The notes under the pieces were generated by a model, which saw only the letters and a list, made by a program, of their open reading frames with translations, was not told where the DNA came from and did not search any database. A program made the translations under genes and the position numbers. Positions 3,118 to 24,647 of a stretch of 60,047 nt of DNA are shown here, piece after piece. The DNA comes from a candidate division SR1 bacterium (lineage in GTDB: Bacteria > Patescibacteriota > Gracilibacteria > Absconditabacterales > Absconditicoccaceae), in assembly GCA_007115995.1 (NCBI GenBank), contig SKJI01000029.1:1-60047 (forward strand). Direction: 5' to 3'. Every line of letters starts with the position of its first letter. Positions within the stretch are counted from its first letter, which is position 1.

Positions 3118-3627
3118 ATGTCAGATATACTATGATGATTTGATGGTATTGATCAAAGTGCAAATACTGCAGAATGATGAGAAGTCACCGCTGAACAAAT
3201 TGAGGCAGTCCAAGAGAAAGCGAAAAAAGCTGCTCAAGCATGAACAACAAAACAACAGCAATCGAAATGGGACAACCAAAATGCCAAATTATTATCATTA
3301 TTACTCAAGTATATTGATGATGACATCCTTCTTGGACACATTTCCAAACAACTTGTTGAACTGCGTGTACCACCACATCTAGTCGTAGTACAATTTTTAC
3401 CCATTATCAAAGCTTTTACTTCTATCGATAAACTCCAACCATTATATAAGCATGTTCGAGCAGAGCAGGAGCGTTGTTTATGTAGAAATTGAGATGAAAT
3501 TCGTAGTTGGTATTGAGTATTATTTAAAATGTACAATGAATTACAAGATTTACCTTCAGGATATAAAACATCATTACTCTCCGCACGATTAGAATCATGC
3601 AACCTATCAGACGAGCAGCAACAATAA
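3118..3627 (+). CDS. Hypothetical protein, 169 aa
   Basis: Not recognised. ATG 3118 to TAA 3625-3627, read with TGA as Gly. The first 55 residues are Gly/Gln/Lys-rich and look disordered (starts MSDILGGFDGID), followed by a compact helical domain with a Cys pair (CLCRNGDE) near residue 123. No signal peptide or membrane segment. It lies between the 285-aa and 1073-aa genes, all plus strand. Overlapping frames on both strands are open under the standard code, but only this frame runs with ATG to TAA and typical host codons. Confidence 0.72.
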
Positions 3628-3894: not shown

Positions 3895-3929
3895 TAGAAT
3901 AGTGTATATTTTATTTGTATCAAGAAACG

Positions 3930-6900
3930 ATGGAAAAATCATTTCTAGAACAGTTAAAAGCATTTGAGGAAATATGAAAAGCTTGATCTTACTGATCTGA
4001 AGACTTTTCTAGTATCCTATATAACCTTCTAGAAAAAGCCCAAGCTGAAGAAAATGAAAAAGAGATCATAAAAGCTATATCTGAAGTTTTCTTTACTGCA
4101 ACAAATATAGTTCAACAACAAACGAAATATGCTCATCACGTATCAAAGGTTCTTTCAGATACTCTGACGTTTATTTCTTCGAGTATTGAATATAATGAGA
4201 ATGTTAGTCTAAACCTTGATCTCGAATCAGTTATTTTATACTATAAACCCAAAGTAGATGCTTTAGTAGATTCTTCAAATACATGATTATCAAGAGCAAA
4301 TACTCTGAGTATACAGCATAATAAAGTAAAAGAAGAAGATAAAGATAAAGAAGAACAAAGAGTAGTGAAAAGAAGAGTTATTCCGTTCATATGAACATCT
4401 GAATCATCTTGATTATCTTATTGACCTACATGATCACCTTCATTACCCACAACATGAAGTGATCGACAATCTTTACTCAGGAGTATATCTGATTGATGAT
4501 ATGAAAAATTGTCTTTAGAAGAAAAAATACTGGCTCGTCAGGCTATTCTCATTATTATAGAAGATGTATATATAGCATCAAAAGGAAAATCATCATTTAT
4601 TACCATGGATGATTTATATGATAAATTTCAACATAAGTATTGAAGTATTGATCAATCCGTATTTACGATGCTTCTCAAAGATCTCCAAGATGATACTATT
4701 TTGAAGATTGATACCGAAAAACCTCGTATTAATATTAATTGATGGTTATTAGATTTTAAAAGAAAATGGTATCAAGCATGAGTAGCATGTGCAGAAGCAT
4801 TGAAGAGTAAATCATATCAAGAAAAACGAGAAGAAAAAATTGAGGAGTATGAGCAAGAAAAGCATAAAGCAGACGATGTAATACACAATCCATTAGTATC
4901 AGTTCATACTGCACGTCAGTCTGCAGTAACGTGATATTTTTCTAGAAAACTGCAGTTTGCTAAGTCAATGGTTTGAGTTGATACTGTTTCAAAGCAACTC
5001 AAATCATATAAGTCATCTCCACTATGAGATAATCATCGTATATCATTTACTAATCCAGAACGACATACAAATCAACTGTTTGATTATAAGAATGCATACA
5101 ACCACAATCAGTTAACATTTCTTGCATCACAGCTTATTAAGGATTTGAGCCTTGTTTCATCAGTAAGCACTGACCTCTTATGACCATCAAATACGAGAAA
5201 TCTCCAAGAACTTCTCGACGCTGTCAAAAATGATTGAATACTAGGAATTTGTCCAACAGATCATTTTGCACAACTCAAACTACTGCGTCCATTTATTCAT
5301 GGAACAACATACCATGCACTTCTGAAAACAAGAAAAAAAATGCTTGCTGGGGCAGAAAAGAATATGATATCAAAATTACATGAAAAGGACGAAATGACTC
5401 AACGAATTCGTACATATCTGAAAGAGGAGCTCTTTGCTTCAAGACTGTATAATAATGATGATTTGACTAGTAAACTTACTGATGATCATGCAGCTGATAT
5501 ATATGAGTTTATTCGTACGTGAATATGATTTTTTACCAAGAAACCAACCATCGAAGACACATTACACTATATGCTTCATCATCTTGATCTGGATGATACA
5601 AAAAAGCATACTAGTACATATAATCTATCATATCAAGACTATGATTCAGATGAACGATTAGCGATTGCAATGGAACATGTTTTCAATGCTCATAAAAAAA
5701 AACTGCTCGATAAAGTATGAATATTTACTCCAACGATATGACATGAAAATAGTGAATTTGGTAGCTATATGCACCAGATCGCAAAAAAAAGAGAGAAAGA
5801 TCGTTCATCATCTACAGAGAGGAAGCGTTGGAGTGTTTTGAAGGATGCTGATAATTATACAGGTAGTTTAGAGAATGATATTTGAGAGTCTATTGAATAT
5901 ACATATACTCTTAGCAATACACACGAGAAAAATGAACAATTCAAGATATATATCAAAGATACTACCTATACTCCCTCTTGATATACTAAGACACTTACTG
6001 CATGAAGTACAGAAGAATTACTTGCAAAAATTTATTCGATGAAAGAGTTAGTTGAGTGATTCAAGATCCCTCTTGCGTATAATTTGATACATGCAATAAA
6101 AAAATCGATTGCAGAGCAACAATGAGTTACTGATTGCTCATGGTGAGATACATATAAGTGATATAATGACAAGAATGAAGAAGTCTATCAGGACGGTAAA
6201 ACATTTGATATTTCGCTAAGATCACTACAACATCAATCACCAGCTTCTTGACTGACGATGCTGTTGATGTATCATGATGCAGTGATGTACTCTGTACGTG
6301 AACATGCTGATGAAATTCTTGAAGCATATAAGAAGCTTGATAAAACATCACTCATACCTCAGGCAGATAAAGGGAAAATCCTCAATGAATGGATGAGCTA
6401 TTTTGATAATCCAGCAAGAAAAATATCTGAACCGATAAGAAATACATTAGATAATTGAAATGAAGAAGAACAGACAATCTATAATCTCCCAGTAGAAGAA
6501 TCATTGCAGTATTATGTCTTCAAGACTCAATGATCTACCATTAAGCATTTTGTCTATGATTGAAAAATATATGTCTGAAAAATCTTAGCTAATGAACGTT
6601 CATCTTCATTCATACTTGATCAAGTAGAGGTTTATGAGAATCTTGATGCTTATATCAAAGCACATGCAACTACCGATACCTCATCGGCTATAGATGCGTA
6701 CACGAGAAAGACAATCAATATATTTTTTCAGCATGAACGTATCAGAACAAAGGAAAGGCAGTTTATTATCAAAGATATTGATGGATGATGGATTCGTATG
6801 TATCGGAATGATACTGAAGCACGCGTGCAATATGATAAAATTACTGATCTGTGAACTGCTGATCCTACTGACAGTAACTTTCTTAAAGAAAAAAAGAATC

Positions 6901-7151
6901 GCCTTCCAGTTTGTAAATCATGCGATGACGATGCACAAGAAATGTTTTATGTTGACTGATATAGTATTAAAAGAAAGTGATTTTTATCATATTTCCTTTC
7001 TAGTCCTTCTGAAACTACTCAACCACATGTCAATCTGCAAAGAGACTATAATATGAAAATAACAAATCACCCAAATCACAGGTATATAACGAGAAATATT
7101 ATTCTTGCTCAGCGTATTCTGACCTGACTCCAACAATCTCTTACAAAATAG
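3930..7151 (+). CDS. Large hypothetical protein, 1073 aa
   Basis: Unrecognised. One continuous frame from ATG 3930 to TAG 7149-7151 with many TGA-Gly codons. No signal peptide and no convincing membrane helix, so probably soluble. An acidic/basic linker rich in Lys, Glu and Asp lies near residues 128-145, followed by a Gly/Ser/Thr-rich linker to about residue 185. The rest is helical, with a Cys pair (VCKSCDDD) near residue 1000. It is followed by two further giant genes of almost the same length (1074 and 1078 aa), although I see no clear repeat relationship between them. Its own strong promoter suggests it starts a transcription unit. Probably a structural or secreted component of the accessory locus (inference). 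Confidence 0.85.
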
Positions 7152-7222: not shown

Positions 7223-10200
7223 ATGCCTATAGATACGAAATGATTAGTTAATTTATGAAAAGAAGTAACTTGAGCTGATGCTAAGAAGAAATTTTTTGGT
7301 AAAGTTATAGATATGAAAAGTCAATGAAAAATTATTAATGCACCAATTTCATGATCTGAATATCTTAAAATTATCAATGATAATTTTACAGGTGAAATAG
7401 AACAATCATCAAAGAAAAAATGATTTATCTTCAAAAAATCAGTTGATGAACATCGTATTATTGTTTCCTATGATGATGAACCAATCTGATTCTTTGAACT
7501 CGATGATAATAGTAGAAAAATATATTGAGAATTTATCAAAAGTCTCGTAGAATTTGAAGAAGATACGGCAACGTTACAAGTTAAAAAGTTTATTGAAGAA
7601 TGCCTGCGACTAGTTCTCTCACAGGATGAACTGAGAGACCTTGCATGAAAAATAATAACACCAGGTAAGAAAGAATTCCAGCGTAAAACAAAACAAGATA
7701 GAAAACAGGCAAAGAAAAATGATAAAATTAACAAAGCATATAGTAAAAATTTAAGTATGCAGACACTGATATTATCACAAGATTTAACGACTACGTTATT
7801 AACCCTACAGGATCATAGAATTCAACTCTTTACTTCTGACTTGGTAAGATATGTTAAAGAATTAAATCAGCTTACCAATAAGGTCAGCGCATGAGATCTT
7901 GATAATCGAAAGCCAAAATACAATGAGATCAGTAATAATATAATTCTTACAACATGTAGGATAAAACTTGTGCTTGATGAATCGAAATCATCATTAGCAA
8001 AAGACTATCAATTAGTCTCGGTATTATATAATCTATGATTTAAGAGATGATGGAGAGATAGAGAAATTAAAGCAATTATGAAATGGTTAAAACAAGAGAA
8101 ACTTTGAGTAGGTATGATGTGAACAACAAAACAATCTGAGACTTGACCAGTACAAGGTCAGCAAGCTGCTATGCAACAGCAATATCCTACATATCAACAA
8201 ATACAATCTCAATGAGTGCCTCCTATAACTCCATATGGAAGTCCGTCTTCTTGACAAACTGCATCACAAGCAGTGATAGCAACAGCAGCATGACAAACAA
8301 CAATTACTACATGAACATGATCGAAAGAGACAATTAAGCAAACACCATGAATTAATCAATCAGTTGAGAGGAATTGAGATGTTTATGCAACGATTGATGT
8401 GACAAAGGTTACTGCAGAATGATTGGTCGCATGATATGTTGCTGCAGCAGAAAACGCTGCGAAGCAAGACACAGCACCTAATGCAATCAATAATCTTTAT
8501 AATTATTCATTAGCTATTGTTTTGCGTGTTATTGAACGACCAAATGAGAAGAACCAGATATTGACGATGCTTGGTTGATGAGATAGAATAAAAGGAAATC
8601 AACTATTTCTCAATGATATTATGAAGAGAGTATTTTTGGATCAAGATATGCAGAAAAAAATCAAAGCAACATACGCATATCTCAAAAGAGAAAGAGATCA
8701 TAATAGGTATCCTCCAGAATGGGATGTTGGAAATCCAGATGCAAGAAAAGATAGTGATGATTGGTTGTTACAAGTTGCCTTTACAAGAGCTATTCCAGAT
8801 CAAATCCGTTATTTACGTTCGTATTTTCAAAGAAATACAGATTGAAATCAATCATGATGATGGACAGAGAGTATGAAGGTAGCTCATTTCTTATGAAGTT
8901 TATGAGTCAATAGTATTGCTGATTATGTAAGGAATAATGTCTCTGATGATTTAGACTTAGAATGAAATATTACTGCTTGAGAAGCATTTGAGTGATGATG
9001 AATATCACAACCATGATGAATAATTGACTATGCAGAACACGAGATAAAGGATTGGATTGATGAAGTTGTTCCATATAAGTGAGTCGCGAGTATGATGAAA
9101 TGAACTGTCTGAATATTGAGTAAATGAGCAAAATGAGCAACAAAATTCGCTCCACTAGCTCTTTTGACATATTGAGCACGAAAAGTATGATCTTGAGTGT
9201 TTAAGACTGTATGAGCAATGTTTTCCAAACCACCAGAATGAAAAAATCGATTCCAAAATGTATGATGAACTATGAAGGATTCATTTTTGAGTTGGTGAAC
9301 GGTGTTGCCATTTGCTTGATGGTTATGACTCTCAACACTCGATAAAAGACCTGGAACAAAAAAAGTACGAGAATCAGTTGCAGAATTATGGGATGATGAT
9401 GTCGCTGCAAAAAAGAAAGCACTTGATGATAATCTAAGAGCGGTGAGTATTGATAGAGAAACATACTCAACTGAGAATGTGTTACAGCTGTATTTGTGAG
9501 ATAAATCATTGCGCGCACTTCAGAACATGAATTGAATTATTTTTGATACGTCTGAAACCATTGTTAATCTCAATAGTTTTCCTCAAGAAGAGTTACAAAA
9601 AGTACCAGGAATTTATAATGTTAGGAGAGACAAAAAATGGGAAACAATTCAGAAAAACCTTGGAAGTCACCTCCGTCAGGAATATAATCTAGATAAAGAG
9701 ATGCGAGATCATCTGATGCAAAGATACCCAGATGAGCCATTACAAGTACTCTTGGATAGATACAAAAAGCAATCAGTCTATCCAATCATGCAAATATGAC
9801 AATTAGGTATTGATGAATCTATCATCTCAACCAAGGAATTGAAGCAATTAGCATATTTGCCTGAATATCTCTTTCAAGAAAAGGTGCTCGATCTTGCATT
9901 TATTACTCAGCAATATCAAAAACTCAACCATCCAGTACTTTTAGAAACATTTGTGACAAATACATGAATGCCATTGCCATGCACTCCTTGATCTAACCCT
10001 CCGACCCAAATGAGTGCAAACGAATTTTTATCTCATGTCAAGTCAACTCAAGATTCAACATGATCAACATTTGCTCAATGGTTCAAAGAACAATGTAAAT
10101 TGATCGCCCAGTTTGATCCAGCAGATTGAAATGGTAGGAGTACACAAAGCCTCAAACTCTTGCAATGATTATATTGTGCTATAAGCCAGCAAGATTTATT

Positions 10201-10447
10201 TGTTGAGGATTGAAATGGAAATCTTAATACTGCATGGAGTACTGATCCAGTTGTATTGGCAACAGGTGACAAAAACGCACTTGGTATTTTCTTCTGTGAT
10301 CCTACCATATGAAATGGTGGAGTCAGCACACAACCATTACTGACCCGTACTGCTCAATGATTATGAAATATTCCTGTAAGCAAGTTTACTAATTATTTTA
10401 TAGAGCAGTTTGTTACAAGACAAGGTACACGAACGTGGCCTCACTAA
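7223..10447 (+). CDS. Large hypothetical protein with Gln-rich linker and amphipathic Gly/Lys segment, 1074 aa
   Basis: Unrecognised. ATG 7223 to TAA 10445-10447. Visible parts, in order: a charged N-terminal region of about 300 residues with a Lys-rich stretch near 155-170; a low-complexity Gln/Pro/Thr/Gly linker (about 300-375); a helical domain (about 390-560); a Gly/Lys-rich amphipathic or weakly hydrophobic segment near 620-700 with repeated G-A-K and G-x-L patterns; and a C-terminal region of about 350 residues carrying four or five cysteines. No N-terminal signal peptide. The alternation of linkers and domains resembles large surface or delivered proteins, but that is inference only. 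It precedes, across a small inserted minus-strand gene, the M23 peptidase gene. Confidence 0.85.
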
Positions 10448-10457
10448 GATGTACTAT

Positions 10458-10494
10458 AAAAAAAAGACAGCTGATGGAAACCCCATCAGCTGTC
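10458..10494 (-). terminator. Rho-independent terminator (minus strand)
   Basis: A perfect 12-bp stem, GACAGCTGATGG / CCATCAGCTGTC, with a 5-base loop. On the minus strand it is followed by eight T, three bases after the stop of the 10497-10982 gene. It also sits 18 bp after the stop of the plus-strand 1074-aa gene, where it lacks a T-run, so it serves mainly the minus gene. Confidence 0.85.
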
Positions 10495-10496
10495 TG

Positions 10497-10982
10497 TTAG
10501 TATAGCTTTCTCATCAGCCAAAAGATGATGATAATTACAATACTAACCAATATCCCTTTAGCCCATCTCTGAGCAGTTTCGGATCTTTTTATCCGAGAAC
10601 ATAGTATGTTCTCATAAAAATTTTCCCAAAAGTACTTTTCGGTATAATAAAAACCAAAAAATACAACTGCTAGGAGAGGAGGGAAAAAAACTTGTTTCCA
10701 TATCAGTTGGGTAATTGACCCATTAAAGATTATGGAAAAAAGGGTTATCGCACTGATTATCTTGATGATGATCTGTGTCCAGAAAGCTGGTCCCCACAAT
10801 TGTGGTGCCCAGTTTGCGCGTGGGATAAATATCCCTAAGAGAATACTTACTGCCCACACAATTGGGATCCAAATCATTCCACTGAGGAATGATAATGATA
10901 TTGGATTTATAAACCATCCAATAAGAGAACTTAGAGCAATTACGATTATAATCGCAATAAGATCTTGTATTTGATTTTTCAT
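10497..10982 (-). CDS. Small polytopic membrane protein, 161 aa, without UGA codons
   Basis: Unrecognised integral membrane protein with four or so hydrophobic segments (residues about 8-30, 30-55, 75-95, 105-125 and a C-terminal segment near 140-157), rich in Ile and Trp, ending RKLY. I chose ATG 10982 (MKNQIQDL) over the upstream ATG at 11135 because a TTGACA-TACATT promoter lies between them. All seven glycines are GGN and none is TGA, unlike every neighbour, and codons such as CCC, CGC and GGG are more common. This suggests either recent acquisition or constraint. A strong terminator follows directly. It is inserted on the opposite strand between two giant plus-strand genes. Confidence 0.75.
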   Translation of the reverse strand: MKNQIQDLIAIIIVIALSSLIGWFINPISLSFLSGMIWIPIVWAVSILLGIFIPRANWAPQLWGPAFWTQIIIKIISAITLFSIIFNGSITQLIWKQVFFPPLLAVVFFGFYYTEKYFWENFYENILCSRIKRSETAQRWAKGILVSIVIIIIFWLMRKLY

Positions 10983-11233: not shown

Positions 11234-14200
11234 ATGAATCTAGAATTGAAACAGTTTTTATCAGAGAGATTCTCTGAAAAACAAGCGCTTACGCTTTTGC
11301 AACTCCAAATAGAGCCTCCAGTTTTTCAGTTAGAGTGATTATTATCTCAGACTCATACATGTAGAGTAATTAGTGATAAAAATAGATATGCACCTACATA
11401 TACCCTACAAGTGCTCAATCAATATTGAACAGTAGAGTGGTCTTGGCGTGTTGATATGAGTATGATCAACACTGATGATTTTACTGTAGTATGATCGTGA
11501 ATTGTCCTTAATGCATCATGAGAGAAGTATGATATGCTTGTGATGAAGCGCTGAGAGTCGTTTATTCTTTCTGTACAAGACCATCAGGTATCATCAGTAT
11601 CAGTGCCAACCACACCACCATCACCATCTACTCAGCCACAGAACAGGATTGATATGCTTGCTGAGCAGTTAGTATATAGTTATAGAATTGAGAGTAATGA
11701 TGGTAGAATATGGACTGTGAGAGATCCAAACGATCCTACGAAACCTCTGACTGACCAAGATGTGTTTAGATCAACAACAACATTACTGATTTGATATGAA
11801 GATCAAGAAGGTATTGTGCAGACATTTTCTGTAAATCTTCCAAACGTACACAATACATCGCCTGCTCGATTTAGTTCAGAGACTACACTGCAGATAGATA
11901 ATGCAGACTTTAAGCTTATGCATACCAATAATACTGCATGACGTATTGTAAAATTTTCTCTTCATGCTGTAGATAAACAATGAATTGTGATAGACAGTAA
12001 GAAGCAAACACAGCATCCAGAAGTGCTTGTTGGGTGAGATATTGACTGGTATAAAAAATTCTTTTATGATAATACTCATGCACCACGCACGCCAGCAAAT
12101 AAAATGTTTTATGGTCACTATAGGAAACCACGTTATGATGGTACTGCACCATTATCGCAAGTATGACAACAATGTGTCGATAATCTAGTGATAAAAAAAC
12201 TCTCTGATAATTATGTGATACATTGAACCAGACCAGATCGTCGATTCAAAGAATATCTAGCTGAATTTACAGTTGATGATATTCAGAAAATGACGCAAAT
12301 AAATGCTACTACATATCAATGAGTCGTCTATAATCATGATAAATCATTGCAACGAAATATTACTCTTTCATTTCCAACGGTTGATGAAAAGTCTGTTATG
12401 CATCTAGCTATCAACTCATATCCACCATCGTTGTGACTGTCTGAAGATGATGAAAAGATCAAACAGAAGGATATTACCCGATTTGATTGAGCATATAATT
12501 TGACATTTCAGTGATTACCAATCTTATGAACGTGAGCACAAAAAGTAGAACTCCGATGATTTGAGAATAAACATACGACGACGCCTGTTGCGTACGAATG
12601 AACAGATTATATCTCTGAAGAACAAAAAAACCATATCGAATCGTTATTTCTTACACAAAAAGATGCAAATACTCCTCACATCCTGACCCTTAAATGAAAC
12701 AACAAGTTTTTTGGATGAACGCTCATACCATCAACAATTTGTGAGATAGATCTGCACGATACAAGTAAATGGTCGTATGTTGATTGACATTGGTGTTATA
12801 CAACGCTCGATGCAAATGATGAAGAAATTGTCATGCAAGCACGCACTCATCCAGAAAATCTTACAAAAACCCATCAATGACCCGTCCTCTCAATTGCAAT
12901 CCTCAAAGTAGGACCAAGATTTGGTGAAGCATTCTCAATCAAGGATATACCTGTTTTGCCAGTTGATTTTTCAGGTATTTCTGATACACTCAAAAAAACC
13001 TATCATGATATAAAGGACTCAGACGATTTTAAAAATTGGCTTAAGGAAGTAAATAAGTATTATGAAAAGATGAAAGATGCCCTTTCTGATGTCGTTGTCG
13101 AAAGAATTTCAGAAAAGAATATCAACAAGTTATCATGAGAAGAGCTGAGTAAGTTTTGAGCTGAAGTTGCGACACACTATGATACAAAAATCTATCCACT
13201 CTGATCTAATGTGACAGCTGATGATCTGAGATTTTTAGAATGTCAGGATGGTTCAGATGATAAGGATATGTATTTAAGATTCAATAAACCTTGAGTTTTC
13301 TGAACAGATAAAATTGCTGATATTCCTTATAAGAGTGGCGCAAGCAATCCACAATCGTATAGTGTTGATGTGACAGATCTTACTATAGATACAAAAAATT
13401 TTTGAGCTGATAGGAGGTATACTTTTTCTGGTACGATAAGATGGATGTATCAGTATGAAGTAACGACAATGGTTAATGCTGATTGAAAAGAAAAAAAGGT
13501 TATAAGAATTTCTGTTCAACCACCACAAGAGTATATTGATTTTATGCGCAATGAATTTGAACCAAAACTCGAAGGGTGATTAGATAAGTTACAGAACAAA
13601 CTGACCTTCCCTGCAACCAGTAAAATAATCACTGCTCCATACAATGAAATTAGATCCTGAAGACGTCATAAATGAATCGATATAGGAAAAGATTGAGGAG
13701 ATCTCCATGCATTAGCAGCATATGATTGAGTCGTTACTCATGTGCAAACACAAACTGATGCACAGTGAAACATTACTTGATATGGTACCTATGTTATCGT
13801 CCAACACGAGTATCAATGAAAGAAATTTAGAACAGTCTATGCACATCTCAATCAAGAATGATTAGTCAGTGTTTGAGATACAGTATCTGCTTGAAAGAAA
13901 ATATGACGTGCTGAACATCGCTCTGATAAACGATGAACAGCAACATGACAACACGTCCATTTTGAACTGAGAGTCCAGGATGCAACACATAAAGAGTCAG
14001 TCAAAACACATACTCATGACTGACGAAGAGATGTCGATCCGATGCTGTATTTTACAAATACATGAGCACGTTGAGGGTGACAAAATCCTGAAAGAAATCA
14101 AAGAAATCCACATGGGCATCCAATATTTAATAATGATTTTACAACAAGAAGTATTGATCAATGATGATATACAATTTCATTTAGTATGAAGCCAAATCTT

Positions 14201-14470
14201 TTGTTTTATGATAATAATATAGCTGAAAAGTACATTATTTCATATACGGAAAAAAATTGAACTGAGAAAACATATACATTTGATCAGATAAGTTGAATAA
14301 ATAATCCAAACAATCTTCATCCTAAATATAAAAATCAGGATTGAGAAGATTCTGAGGTCTCAAATCAATATGCACGAGAAATTCCAGATATAAAACCATG
14401 AACAACAATAACTATTACCTGACCAAACAATATTCCTTCACCAGTAAATATATCTCATGAAGTCAAGTAA
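11234..14470 (+). CDS. Large protein with C-terminal M23 (LytM-type) endopeptidase domain, 1078 aa
   Basis: Predicted zinc endopeptidase that cuts peptidoglycan cross-bridges. ATG 11234 to TAA 14468-14470. The N-terminal two thirds (to about residue 780) is unrecognised, beta-rich in composition, with a short Pro/Thr linker near 117-130. The peptidase domain spans about 795-925: the HKGID motif gives H812 and D816, YAHL lies in between, and HVHFE gives H907 and H909, so all the usual zinc ligands are present. A 150-residue tail follows. There is no signal peptide: the start MNLELKQFLSERFSE is charged. Export must use another route, or the domain acts in a delivered particle. The last 14 bases overlap the next gene, suggesting translational coupling. 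Confidence 0.9.
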
Positions 14471-17222
14471 TATATCTGTATACCATTCTCAAACTGATAA
14501 TCGTATAGAACGTCAGCATAGTGATGTAGAGTTTTTTGAGACACTAATAGAAGCACACAAGCGAGAACAGCAGTTTTTTTATCTTGAACAGCTGGTGTCT
14601 GATGCAGAGAGTCATGAAATTATCGATCATTTTTTTCAGCTCAAAGAGCATTACTTACAATTTCTTGAAGTAATGTTTACAGCAGTTTGATTACAGCCTC
14701 AAGATAATATCTATTATCAGGCAGACAAAGAACGATATGAACAATTGTTCTGTAGTTCAGTAGATGATACATTTGGTGATCAGTTTCTTGAAGCATTTAA
14801 GAATTCCATAACACACTGATTACCAATGATGATTCAAACTGTATGAGCTCATGTTTCTTTAACAAACGATAATTTGCATCAGTCCAAACAACCTATACAC
14901 TATGCTGATCGTATTAGTACAGCATCGTGGAAATTTCTCCGTTTTACAAATACTATGAAGGAAGAGTCTATACAATTTATTGGAAGTCATGAATTAGCAC
15001 TACTGAAACAGGAACTTAATAATTCTCCTGACTCAATCAATGAAGCAACAGTGATGGCTGAAACAATTGAAAAGGATATCCAAGCATGATATTCTTATCT
15101 TGCAATATTGTGACGCTTGATGAAAGAAAAATATTTTATTCTTTGATGACAGATAGCTCCTGCTCATACGCCTACTATCGAGGTAAGGTTTCAATGAATA
15201 GCATTTACAGTTGCAAAGCAATCTGATTTTAACTATCAATCATTAAAAGTTCTACCACCAGAAATTAAAGCACTTGTTGATATGGAAATAGAAGCACTAA
15301 ATTTATTGAAAGATCAAACTAAAGATACTTTACAAAAAAAAAAATTGAATGATGCGATTATAAAGGCTAAAAAAATTTTAAGGAAGAAGAATAACCAAGA
15401 GAAAGCAATAGTAGCATATCAAAAATACTGTCAGAGCAAGAAAATTCGTATGAATAACATTCGTTGATCAATATGAATTGCTTGATGACATTTTCAAAAT
15501 GAAACATATCGCGCCTTCAATAAAATGAGTAGAAGAGCACTATTACAGATAAAAAATATCGGTCAGCAGATTGATGTTCTACAAAAATCAATGAGAGAAA
15601 CTATACAATATCGAGTAACACGATGAAGAGCAAACCCAACAATGTTAAGACAAGCACAGCATGAAATTACTAAACAAACACAAGCAACAAACAAAAAAAT
15701 TCTTACGATGCAACAAACTGCACTTAATCAAATGCGTCATCTAGATACAAAAACTATATTACGTGAAGCACAAAAACCATGATTTATTAATTCGTTCTTA
15801 CATTTTAATAAACATGCACAGAATATACATTGATGAATACAAAAAATAGCAACACACAAAAAAAGTAAATATGCTGTATGATTTCTTTTATGAATGTGAG
15901 TTTGGACATATATTCATGCAGGATGATCCGAAGTATTAGATAATGATGCTATGATGCGTACATTATGAAATGATCTCTGAGATATGATTGTGTGATTTAT
16001 TCCTATAGTCTGATGAGTCAATGATTTGTATATTGCAATAGTATGAACAGATTGGAATAAGAGAGCATTAACATCTGGAGCACGTGCTGAAAGAGTGTTA
16101 TTTGGTATTGTCGGATTATTACCGTGAGTATGAACACTTATAAAAGTATCAAAGAATTCGAAAAAAGCCCTTGCTCTAATAAAGGCATTGGAGTGAATAC
16201 AAAAGCTTTCTCCAGGCCTGTATACTATGTCATGAACGTATGCAGTATGAAAATTATGACTTGTTGGTCTTGCATCAACAGGAGAACTTGCTAGTGCACT
16301 CTATACGTGATTATGAACAGGGTTGCATGCGCTATTTCATGATAAATGATTAGATGAAATATCAATACCTGAACCTGAGTTTGTTGCATCTGAGTGAATT
16401 GAGTTCTCTACAATCTCTAACCATGTGGACTCATTTATAACATGATTTTTTGCTTTGTCTGCTAAATACAACGAGTTTAATTCCATTAATCAACTCATAA
16501 AAATTTTTGAAGAGACTCTTGTAAGACCCTTTCATGATGCAGTTGTTAGAGAGTATCCTCAGGAATCTCAAGATCTTATTTCTTTGTATAGAAAGCTTTT
16601 CTTACAATCTTTGTATTATCAATGATTCTTTACTAGCTCAACTGCATCTTTGCCTAAGGAATATGATAAAGAGTATGAACCATATCGTAAGGAACTTGAG
16701 GTATTACCAATTCGTAGTATGCGTATTGTGTTACCGTGATGATCTATTATATGAGAGAGAGAAAGTAAACTTTACCAAGATTACGCTCATGCATCATATT
16801 CAATGTGACCATTATGATCAATTATAATTGCACACCCACCAACTATTCCATATGATGGGATGAAATTATTTGTTTATGATACATCTTTAGATTTTGTTGC
16901 TAAGACAGAGTATGAACAAAGATATGCTGATCATCTTACAGAATATGTTGCTTGAAATTATGCTTTTTGATACAATATTCAAGGTACTACAACTCACACT
17001 ATGCAATGAATACTCTTTCGTGATGTATGATTAGTTGAACATAATGGAAAGCAGTTTTTTTCATGTGATATTTTTGATGCATGAAAAGTGACCACATGCT
17101 TAATCCCAATGATTCACTTTGCATGATCAGCGCAGCATGGCGAGCCGTTTATCCTTGATCTTTCAAATGCAAGCACGCAATGGTATGTCAATCATTGTAT
17201 AGCAGCTGCATTCCAGCAATAA
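14457..17222 (+). CDS. Hypothetical 921-aa protein with pre-toxin-like Gly-rich module
   Basis: Starts inside the end of the M23 gene (ATG 14457, 14-bp overlap) and ends at TAA 17220-17222. Order of parts: helical N-terminus (1-250); Lys/Gln-rich coiled-coil-like region (about 270-440); a hydrophobic segment near 477-495; then GFIPIVGG (513-520), DLYIAIVG, and LLPGVG ending at 559. This Ile-Pro/Gly/Asp-Leu-Tyr arrangement resembles the pre-toxin regions found before C-terminal domains of polymorphic toxins. The C-terminal 350 residues would be the effector position, but I recognise no catalytic motif there. No signal peptide. A related hydrophobic module occurs in the 1164-aa protein on the other side of the 30-bp convergent gap. 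The toxin link is inference. Confidence 0.85.
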
Positions 17223-17251: not shown

Positions 17252-20200
17252 TTACTGAACTTTTTTTCTGTCACGAAGTATTGCAGGCATATTATGGTTG
17301 ATTCGAGTTTTTATTCGTTCTTGCTCGTATCTAGCGCCGTCTTTTTTCTGAATACTATCATACACAAACGCAATAAAATCATTGTCAAATGCGTTTTTAA
17401 TACTTTCATTGTTTTGGTATGATCTATCTAGCTCAACGAGATATGCTTCTTGATCATCTACTACATCAAATTTATCTGAAAGAAATTGTTGTAATGTCAA
17501 CTCAAATGCAATTCTTCAGTAGTAGAATGATTTCAGATCGTTCTTAAAGCGAATTGAACTATTTTCAGGAAGTAATGACAGTATATGTTCTTTTGCTCAG
17601 CTACTAAATGCTCAATATTCTTCTCGTCATAACATTTCTGTTGATGCAAGTTCTACCATAATCATTCAACTATGATCAATGGATGTACGGAAGAGTGAAG
17701 GCTTATTACTACGATATGTTCCATCGTGAGTTTGCACAGGGGTTGCATGATAGAGTTCTTGTGCATAGTATGTAAGTTCTCGTTGCAAAATTTGTTCTTT
17801 ATTTCATATCGGCATTTCTTCTCGATATTGAGCAAGAAATTCTTTTGCTCATGCTTCTCATGACTTTCATTCATACTTTCTTTTTCACGATCTTATTTCT
17901 ATGTATGATCTTACCTTTTCAAAATGTGAATAATCTAATCATTTTTTTATACCAAAAATACTTACTCATACAACCGCTGATACCATTCACACTCTAGCTA
18001 ATGCTGTTTGTAGTGCTCAGGATTCTTTAGCAATTTTTGCGGCATTACTTGCAATGTTCGTTCATGTTTGTGCGGTATGTAACGGACTGACAACCATATT
18101 TTTCGTTGCAATGAAAGGATCAAAGAGCAGTTCAACTGCTTTCATTCATCATGCTACTGCTCATCTAGAACTAAATGGTCATCAATATTTGAGTGTTGCT
18201 CGTCATATGACTCATATTTCTAATCACAAGAAAAATGTTCATAGAGCAAGCTCTCAAAATTTGATTCATTGGCTACCAAGTGCATCATCAATAATAAGAC
18301 ATGGTCATATAATTGGAATAAGCATTCATGCAAGTTTTCATAACTCAAGTTGAGTTTCCTCACTACTTTTTGCTTGAATCATAAATGCTATTGGAGAAGA
18401 TCTAACAATATTTCAGATAAACTGTGGGAAGTACTTGAGTCATGTCTGCATCATTGCATTAAACTCTTTGATATCTGCAGCAGATCAAAATTTCACAAAT
18501 CATTGTTTAGATTGTTGTGTCAGTTCATTGACCCAAGAAAAGAATCTAGCATTGTTAATTACTGCTCATCAGGTTAATGTCCAAATTCTTCATACTCATC
18601 TATACGATTGCAGTGTGAAATGTTGTTTAAAGATCAATGCTATATCTGATGTAGTATTTATAATATTACTTACACTATTACGTAAGAATGTATATAAACC
18701 TCTATCTCAAAGAAATGTTTTTATTTTATTATGATTCTTCAGCGAATCTACGAGTCAAGATTGTTTCTCTGCAATACTTTGTGAAATAAACAAACCGATT
18801 TGTTTTTTTCGTCCATGTGGCGTTTGTCGATCTGTATAACCTTTCATGGCATCGCTAAAATCCTGCAATCGTTTTGTTCGCTTTTCATCAAGTGGTATTC
18901 ATTTGCGTTGTAAGAATGCTTGCAATGATTTTGTTGCCTCTTCAGCACTTTCAATTGTTGTATTGGTAAGACTTTGTTCCCATGCTACAAGTAATCATGA
19001 TCATTGGATATGCATAAAGACATCATCAATATACTTACTCATTGTTCATTGTGGTCACATAATATGATCAAGTTCTGCAATATTACTTTGTCAGAGTTGT
19101 TCCCCCACAACACTCAATAATTCATAGAATCTACTGTGTTCATTTGCCATGTTTCTTTTGAGTCATTTGAGTCAGTGCAATGCATTCCCTATTTCTCATC
19201 GTCCATCTTTTAGACCTACCGACATGATACTTGTTGTCATATTCACAAGTCAATTTGTAAGTGCTGCTCAATATTTTCCTATTACTCTAGATTGTCTAAA
19301 GATAATCGCAAGGATTGCTTCTTTACTGTTTGTATCTAGTCAAAATAGCAAGGTATTTTGGAGTTCATGTTCCATATCGATTGATACTCATGGTGAAATC
19401 AAAACGTTCATTCGTGCAGATGTTGACACCTTTACTGACTTCAACGACATATGTAGCATTTTTTTTCAGTTGTAGACTCACATACTTCGTGCAATATCAG
19501 CTGTTGAATCAAACACATTATGCCTAATGAGCAGTGATAGGAGTTGAGGAGCATGTTTTATTCATCAAAAAAATCTATCCAATGGTGTCACATTCTTTTC
19601 TTGATCTGTTAGCATTGCTCACTTGGTAATTTTTTTGTATCTCACAAAAAAATCATTGAGAAATGCTTCTTTTGCTGTTCATTCAAGTTTCTTTCATCAG
19701 ACAACAAGAGCCTCATTAAGAATGTTTTCTCATAAACGATTCATTGCATCGCGTTCTCAATCTATCAGGAGCTTTTCCTTTTTTTGTTGCACCTTGCTTA
19801 TAAATGTTGATACCTCTTCTACGCTATGTTTTGCTAAATGCTGTCCATACTCTTGATGCATTTCTAGTAATACTTGATATCTTTTTAGTATTTCTTGCTG
19901 CTCAGTAGGTACCTTATTACTTGGTTTTATAGTAATAGTTTCGTCTCTTCAGAGGAGGATATCTAGCAATCTTCTAATCTTTCCTTTTCATTGTTCTTTA
20001 TCTAACTCATTTTTGACCTCATCAGTTGCGTTTTCAAAAATGTTTGGCATACGAAGAATACTTTCTTGTATAGTAACGATATCTGTAGCAAGCTTTGATT
20101 GTTGTGCTGTGTATTTTTTATATATTTTTTCATATTGTTCAATTGTTGCAAGTTGATCTGGATGGGTTGCTTCTTCGAGAGATTTGTTAATCAAATACTC

Positions 20201-20746
20201 TCATATACGAATATCCATTTCAGTAATGTAATGAATGAGATATTCATTGAGTATATGAAGATCTCGTATTGCTTCAATATCATTTTCTTCTACGTTTGAT
20301 TCTATTTTCTCATACGAACCTATAATATCATTAAAAAGATTATTAATATTTGGATAGAGTGTATCTGATCTTTTAATTCACATTTTTTTGCAGAGAATAT
20401 CTGTACGAGATAGATTAGAGCTTAGTTGTTTAAAAAAATATGCATATTTCTCTTCAAATGTATAAGCACTGTTTCTGTCTGCAAGGGTTGTTATAATTTT
20501 GTCCTTTGTTTTTTCAAACAATGTAAGAATAACTTGTGCTCTTTCAAGAACATGCTCTTTGTGTTCTAATATAGATATTGCTGATGCATGCGGCTTTTTT
20601 ATATCGTGTATTTTTTTTCGTAATTCATCAGGCGTACTTGTTGCCAATGCTAGCATTGCAATTTTTTCCTGAATGAGTTCATTTTTTGTATTTTCTAATA
20701 ATCTATCCACCAGATCTGATTCAACTGTTTGGATTTTTTCAACCAT
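17252..20746 (-). CDS. Large hypothetical 1164-aa protein with Gly-rich hydrophobic module
   Basis: Unrecognised. ATG 20746 to TAA 17254-17252; every triplet of this frame was read and holds no TAA or TAG. The N-terminal 350 residues are Lys/Glu-rich and coiled-coil-like. The middle is mixed helical. Near 805-860 a hydrophobic module reads LIPIIGP (IPIIG at 810-814), IDDALG and GLEIGVIGRA, which resembles the IPIVGG module of the 921-aa protein. A further short hydrophobic stretch (MVSAVVGVSIFGIKKG) lies near 925-940, followed by a charged C-terminus. No signal peptide. It is the last gene of a minus-strand unit with the frame-shifted gene and the 671-aa gene. Possibly a partner or effector of the same system (inference). 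Confidence 0.88.
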
Positions 20747-23519: not shown

Positions 23520-24647
23520 ATGGAACAAGCTAATTTTCAAAGCTCATTCGAAACACTATTAGTTGATAATGAGTTTAATGAGAGTACTCAAGTATTATTA
23601 CAACAGCTTCACAATGAAATTTGTGATAATTTAGATACACCAATATTAGATACACCAAGAACAAATTATGAAAAAATAAGGAGTTTACTCGATGAAATGA
23701 AGCAATATATTACAACTGAATCCAAATGATTTCATGAATATCAACAGGCTTTAGAAGATCTTATTATAGAGAAACAAAAAGAGGAATGAATAATAACTGA
23801 TGAGGCATGACGAATGCTTGAGAACTATCAAGAAGAAATCATTGTCTCGAATCAGGCAGATGATACAGAATCATCATGAACAAATCGATTTAGTCAAACA
23901 ATACAGCAAATTTCAGATTTTTTTGATGAAAAAGCTTTACTTTTTGGTGTATCATTTGAATCTATTCGTTCGTTTGTACCTGACACAATACGATCACCAG
24001 TTAAAGAAACATTTTCACAAATCAAGGAGTGAGCTGTCTGATTGTATGATACACTTATCTGATTCTTTTGATGAAAAAAAGAAAAGGAAAATAAAACAAG
24101 AACAAAAAAAGAAATTATTAAAAAATTTGCAATTCAATCATCGGTAGATTATGATCCTTCACGTACCTATACAGCAAATGAATATTTTACAATGATTTGG
24201 CCGTTAGCGTTGGAAATAGAACAAAAGTTTGGTATTCCTGCATCAATCGTTGCTGCTCAATCTGCATTGGAGTCATGATATTGAAACAGTTGATTAACAC
24301 AGAAATGATTTAACTTCTTTGGATTCAAAAAAAGTTCAACTCGACCATATGAGACAATAACACTTATTGATAATTGAGAAGAAAAATCTTCACCATTCAA
24401 AAAATTTATTTGTCCAGAAGAGAGTTTTTTTGATTATGCACAATCACTAAAAAATCTATCAAGATATGAGCAATTATTTACTTATGAACAATGATCTTAC
24501 AAACAACGAGCACAATGATTGGAAGATGCATGATATGCTTGAAAGTCGCAAGCACACAACACTCAACAAATGAGCTATGCAGAAAAACTGATATGGATTA
24601 TTGAAAAATACGATTTAGATGATAAGCGTGCAGCAAATGAATGCTAA
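23520..24647 (+). CDS. Peptidoglycan glucosaminidase, GH73 (FlgJ/LytG-type), 375 aa
   Basis: Predicted to hydrolyse N-acetylglucosaminyl bonds of peptidoglycan. ATG 23520 to TAA 24645-24647. Residues 1-200 form an acidic helical region with a Lys-rich linker near 185-205. The catalytic domain (about 225-370) has FGIPASIVAAQSALESGYG, where E251 matches the family's catalytic Glu, then KGFNFFGFK, TYEQGSYKQRA and AGYAGKSQ, in the usual GH73 order. No signal peptide, which is unusual for a wall hydrolase. Its 3' end overlaps the M15-like gene by 29 bp. The pair is divergent from the 671-aa unit. Together with the M23 protein the locus encodes three different wall-cutting activities. Confidence 0.93.

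Follow-up and report, generated by a model that had tools for sequence, protein, structure and literature searches.

The window, by which we mean the whole 60,047-base stretch of DNA analysed, is one of the 50 contigs of a genome that totals 1,005,022 bases and is 94.5% complete, with an estimated contamination of 1.88%. That this bacterium reads UGA as glycine is well founded, because family searches of the genome found release factor 1, whereas release factor 2 gave no match that passed its cut-off, and because TGA makes up 68% of the glycine codons in 404 filtered open reading frames (ORFs). A small marker gene (3142-3597, plus strand) is followed on the same strand by giant genes for proteins of 1078 aa (3915-7151, 40 of 49 glycines written as TGA), 1074 aa (7223-10447, 65 of 85), 1078 aa with an M23 peptidase domain (11234-14470, 56 of 74) and 921 aa with a match to the Pre-toxin TG domain (14457-17222; 27.3 bits against a Pfam cut-off of 23.5, E 3.7e-6), and by a further giant of 1164 aa on the minus strand (17252-20746). 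Between the second and the third of these lies a minus-strand gene without a single in-frame TGA (10497-10982), convergent with the 1074-aa giant and divergent from the M23 giant. A tRNA is the sole match of Rfam in the window at gathering thresholds.

Of 49 family genomes, 45 gave a match to the marker (E up to 0.01), and the giants are seldom recognisable, so that the locus looks both core and fast-evolving. Recognisable copies of three giants were seen in one genome of the same family, here called G101, and in none of 36 further relatives surveyed at the marker locus; at L179 and L125 one window giant each was matched, weakly. A PHROGs scan of six neighbours (P0002-P0007) gave strong matches to peptidase, to endolysin and to one tape-measure family, all on the M23 domain, the others having E 0.028 or worse. 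Near the giants, at 23520-24647, a glucosaminidase domain (PF01832, E 4.2e-27) is encoded by another recoded gene, and taken with the M23 domain it suggests, from domain content, a role in cutting cell walls. Excerpts of PMC8080830 give 1392-4163 aa for the ten longest proteins of Vampirococcus, inferred there to be membrane proteins; the window's giants (921-1164 aa) belong to the same lineage and are also very long, a likeness of length.

The initial annotation had placed a membrane gene in this gap, and at those coordinates an ORF does run from an ATG at 10982 to a TAA ending at 10497. It encodes a protein of 161 aa (P0001) with five hydrophobic, predicted membrane segments (residues 7-25, 35-53, 71-89, 93-111 and 143-161). 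Dinucleotide shuffling of the 786-base gap, repeated 5000 times, never produced an ORF of 161 codons, and none of 2000 dinucleotide shuffles of the gene itself, with unreadable codons set to alanine, reached either its 10 tryptophans or its five segments. The frame is open upstream as far as 11135, but 10982 is the likelier start codon because the promoter match described below falls within this extension. A single-sequence structure model is all helix at low confidence (pLDDT 67.9, pTM 0.29), and the structure comparison proposed at the outset yielded no match in the PDB and no useful match in BFVD. Searches of Pfam, NCBIfam and PADLOC gave no family match. PDB sequence matches to plant SOS1 (E 0.0078) and to a Na+/H+ antiporter (E 0.026) were judged to be hydrophobic chance. 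The ORF is best explained as a genuine gene, whose small polytopic product would reside in the inner membrane.

All seven glycines of P0001 are encoded by GGN (GGA 3, GGG 3, GGT 1), as first annotated, whereas the neighbours do mostly use TGA, which accounts for 276 of 354 glycines (78%) in five flanking giant genes. It also accounts for 518 of 700 (74%) in 25 native membrane genes, which argues against an effect of membrane proteins as such. TGA counts across the ORF are 0, 5 and 1 in the sense frames and 3, 2 and 7 in the antisense frames; the five other frames thus hold 18, and zero is reached solely in the reading frame, although the third sense frame is also low (1 TGA in 162 codons, compared with 5.2 per 100 in native genes). 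The initial annotation had held that equally long native genes without TGA would speak against a foreign origin. In 547 kb of the genome, the sample used for codon and terminator counts, 413 ORFs of at least 100 aa have seven or more glycines, and three of these are TGA-free: the P0001 gene and two adjacent ones at the end of contig C25. At 13 TGA-rich loci of relatives the count is 1 of 156. A beta-binomial fit, which allows for overdispersion, gives P = 0.0028 for none of seven and predicts that the whole sample would contain about 0.08 (0.076) genes of this kind by chance, so that the glycine signal is strong and suggestive but not decisive alone.

Several other TGA-free genes were seen. 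The two on C25 (L082 141-3277) lie at the end of a 79-kb contig, one of them has PEP synthase-type domains and 45 glycines, and the pair may reflect either transfer or a chimera. The second TGA-free gene noted in the window's genome (L080 7461-7865; 134 aa, 5 glycines) lies on another contig, has its own strong terminator and looks lipoprotein-like by eye; the genes around it are recoded, and ORFs resembling restriction-modification genes are found close by. A TGA-rich relative holds two TGA-free ORFs at L179 (marker-oriented 7773-8351 and 14285-14683), each with 5 glycines and a strong terminator. The TGA-free ORF at L092 111-485 resembles its TGA-using neighbour by eye, which means that TGA-free genes need not be foreign.

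Composition beyond glycine is unevenly atypical. Tryptophan reaches 6.2% in P0001 against 0.8% in native ORFs, but a likely spurious ORF (L042 19317-19730) has 5.8%, so that high tryptophan alone is no mark of foreignness. GC by codon position is flat in the TGA-free gene (0.36/0.354/0.354, compared with 0.428/0.342/0.235 in native genes), with third-position GC of about 35% against about 24%. Synonymous use outside glycine is just mildly odd (z -3.19), 23 of 225 native genes being odder. In the codon-usage check proposed initially, glycine, GGG and third-position GC stand out, the other synonymous codons mildly. As to the three codons that had been called richer, GGG is (3 of 7 glycines, against 4%), CGC is not confirmed, with one single codon, and for CCC the claim was wrong, as it encodes none of the 7 prolines. 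The native sets were filtered with a home-made codon score that kept 225 of 270 and 404 of 462 ORFs and that rejects P0001 itself (coding score -0.05, below the native-gene filter); the first ORF set omitted frames open at contig ends. Shine-Dalgarno-like sites are rare in this genome (a 4-nt match at 7 of 357 native genes, 16 of 357 after shuffling), and the missing site of the TGA-free gene was dropped as a foreign mark because native genes also go without one.

The gene ends in an intrinsic terminator on the minus strand (10465-10495), a 14-bp stem followed by a T run that folds, from 10495 to 10465, at -23.3 kcal/mol with a z of -7.2. Since the T run is on the minus strand, it serves the TGA-free gene and not the convergent giant, which bears out the earlier claim of an own terminator. 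With very few TGA-free genes behind every comparison, strong terminators follow 2 of 4 TGA-free and 4 of 378 TGA-using genes in the 547-kb sample (Fisher 0.0012), and three looser settings leave 2 of 4 against 8, 10 and 11 of 378 (Fisher 0.0036-0.0062). Of 36 marker loci in relatives, the 13 that are TGA-rich (TGA at least 50%) show 2 of 3 and 8 of 172 (Fisher 0.0086); no significant excess is seen in G101 (1 of 7 and 9 of 135, Fisher 0.41; 0.18 at the loosest setting). The test excludes TGA-free ORFs with fewer than 5 glycines and genes less than 120 nt from the end of a stretch, the TGA-free L092 111-485 among them. The own promoter claimed alongside stands less firmly: a candidate sigma-70-type promoter, TTGACA-16-TACATT, is present at 11048-11021 on the minus strand, but the evidence is weak, since the region holds 56 such matches, a slight excess over chance (mean 38.7, sd 6.8).

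These results bear on the main rival to transfer, in which the gene is native or arose de novo as a hydrophobic ORF in the gap, and has no TGA by chance or because of its youth. The mildly atypical codon use outside glycine, the flat GC by codon position together with the negative coding score, the P of 0.0028, the example of L092 and the lack of any homologue in our searches would all fit such a gene. The shuffles speak against it, as neither the gap yielded such an ORF nor the gene such a tryptophan count or segment number, and so does the rarity of strong terminators after TGA-using genes. We consider a chance or young native gene unlikely, at something like one-fifth of the weight.

Of the 49 genomes of the order that were searched, several of them incomplete, only its own contained P0001. 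No credible relative appeared among 288 genomes of the class or 379 of the phylum (10 weak partial matches), sets that overlap with each other and with that of the order. Phages, plasmids and viral contigs gave no relative either (best PHROGs match E 0.57), and a pattern scan of genome contigs, which reaches close relatives only and was the sole coverage for most phyla beyond the window's own, gave none. Weak partial matches in 24, 11, 10 and 1 other genomes, from overlapping searches, were rejected as a group from the result tables, being below 20 bits, partial and often interrupted by stops; the best of the weak matches (E 2.9e-4) has one TGA and three TAA inside, and an order-wide weak match (E 0.0039) two internal TAG. 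As to the distribution checks named by the initial annotation, the gene is absent from the 48 other genomes of the order that were searched, and no credible homologue in a standard-code donor lineage turned up in the genomes, phages, plasmids and viral contigs searched.

The same place is occupied in G101, in which the homologues of the M23, Pre-toxin and 1164-aa giants keep the order and orientation of the window at 25-30% identity. The slot before its M23 giant holds three TGA-free genes, two of them for apparently secreted products, with 48 glycines and no TGA (L073 6980-8840): one on the minus strand for a 162-aa membrane protein (P0008), one for an apparently secreted protein of 229 aa and, last, one for a lipoprotein-like protein of 148 aa. 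The last is followed by an 11-bp hairpin and a T run, which counts as a terminator only at a setting that allows 3 GC pairs. In the giants that flank the slot of G101, TGA encodes 154 of 360 glycines, which gives 2.3e-12 for none of 48, but G101 is heterogeneous in its use of TGA, with many TGA-poor ORFs, and under a genome-wide model the value is about 0.02 for each gene. The giants on the far side of the slot show no clear homology between the window and G101, so that the two slots correspond on a single side. P0001 and P0008 share strand, place, length and tryptophan content; homology was not supported, since 1108 of 2000 shuffles reach the global alignment score and 1834 of 2000 the local one (unreadable codons again set to alanine). 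Family, phage and plasmid searches with the slot genes of G101 and the L080 gene gave nothing credible.

By eye we take the secreted slot protein to resemble an outer-membrane barrel and another a lipoprotein, and both presumably resemble envelope proteins of Bacteroidota, with no match in family or database searches; P0009, from the same slot, folded poorly (pLDDT 34.7), so that no barrel is shown. In a cell that presumably has a single membrane, a barrel or a lipoprotein would be an odd product. That the relative's gap also holds TGA-free genes indicates that the gap between the giants tolerates insertions, and it may favour them. We regard as highly improbable a reading in which a core Absconditabacterales locus reserves the gap before the M23 giant for cargo and keeps it filled with code-neutral envelope genes that carry their own signals, because their products would be made, or would also have to be readable, in standard-code partner cells.

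The comparison with G101 also weighs on two further readings. An assembly or binning artefact, in which a fragment of another organism was joined into the contig, would find some room in a genome of 50 contigs with 1.88% estimated contamination, one that has another TGA-free pair (L082) at a contig end, where chimeras are likelier. However, the gene is embedded about 10 kb deep in a contig of 60 kb, with both boundaries intergenic, and the same slot in G101 likewise holds TGA-free genes, which makes an artefact very unlikely. The initial annotation had thought of an immunity or regulatory protein. Small membrane proteins can act as immunity proteins, and the Pre-toxin TG match in the giant at 14457-17222 exceeds the Pfam cut-off, so that protection against a polymorphic toxin of the neighbouring giants comes to mind. 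The TGA-free gene is, however, neither adjacent to nor co-directional with the Pre-toxin TG gene: it lies upstream on the opposite strand, with the M23 gene in between, and has a terminator of its own. No immunity family in Pfam, NCBIfam or PADLOC matches P0001, and G101 keeps the homologue of the Pre-toxin giant (PT-TG just E 0.34) with slot genes in which no homology to P0001 was detected. An immunity role is accordingly doubtful in the extreme, and the suggestion was not borne out.

Horizontal transfer remains our preferred reading, namely that the TGA-free gene came from a donor with the standard code as a self-insulated cassette of one gene, to which we give a probability of roughly two in three. 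Several signs that are fairly independent of one another speak for it: the lack of in-frame TGA, high tryptophan, raised third-position GC, a strong terminator of its own in a genome where such terminators are rare, and presence in 1 of 49 genomes of the order. The same cassette had been proposed initially, and codons, tryptophan, terminator and distribution uphold that part of the proposal; as no donor homologue was found, we infer the donor. A single-gene cassette from a standard-code organism would have entered the UGA=Gly bacterium recently enough for its glycine codons not yet to have drifted to TGA. Since it lacks in-frame TGA and ends in TAA, it would give the identical protein under both codes, and so would be functional on arrival without recoding. 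The strong terminator would stop its transcript ahead of an antisense run into the convergent giant. Entry may have been by DNA uptake, as proposed for Vampirococcus, which we infer in the same way as the transfer and its direction.

Gene transfer into the Absconditabacteria lineage is already known: excerpts of PMC8080830 report 126 horizontally acquired genes in Vampirococcus lugosii, propose uptake of host DNA via ComEC and pili, and discuss recoding as a barrier. As far as that excerpted account goes, the P0001 gene would share with those genes an origin outside the lineage and a UGA=Gly epibiont as recipient; they were found by phylogeny with homologues, whereas this one, for which our searches yielded no homologue, was recognised by its code-neutral codons and own terminator. 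Code-11-compatible, TGA-free phages of Gracilibacteria and Absconditabacteria are also known, alongside prophages dense in TGA (excerpts of PMC10746230). The likeness to these phages, as described there, is the lack of in-frame TGA and the identical reading in both codes; unlike them, the present case is a single gene among recoded genes, with a best PHROGs match of only E 0.57. Among the titles listed in our literature search, none other than PMC10746230 dealt with terminators or with genes free of TGA in genomes of this kind.

In a genome that reads UGA as glycine, a gene that lacks in-frame TGA and has a terminator to itself might be recognised, without recourse to homology, as a recent gain across a code boundary. 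Such gains are relevant to the question, posed in the excerpts of PMC8080830, of whether recoding cuts these epibionts off from their hosts, and a slot common to two genomes of one family leads to a testable prediction of where such genes land.
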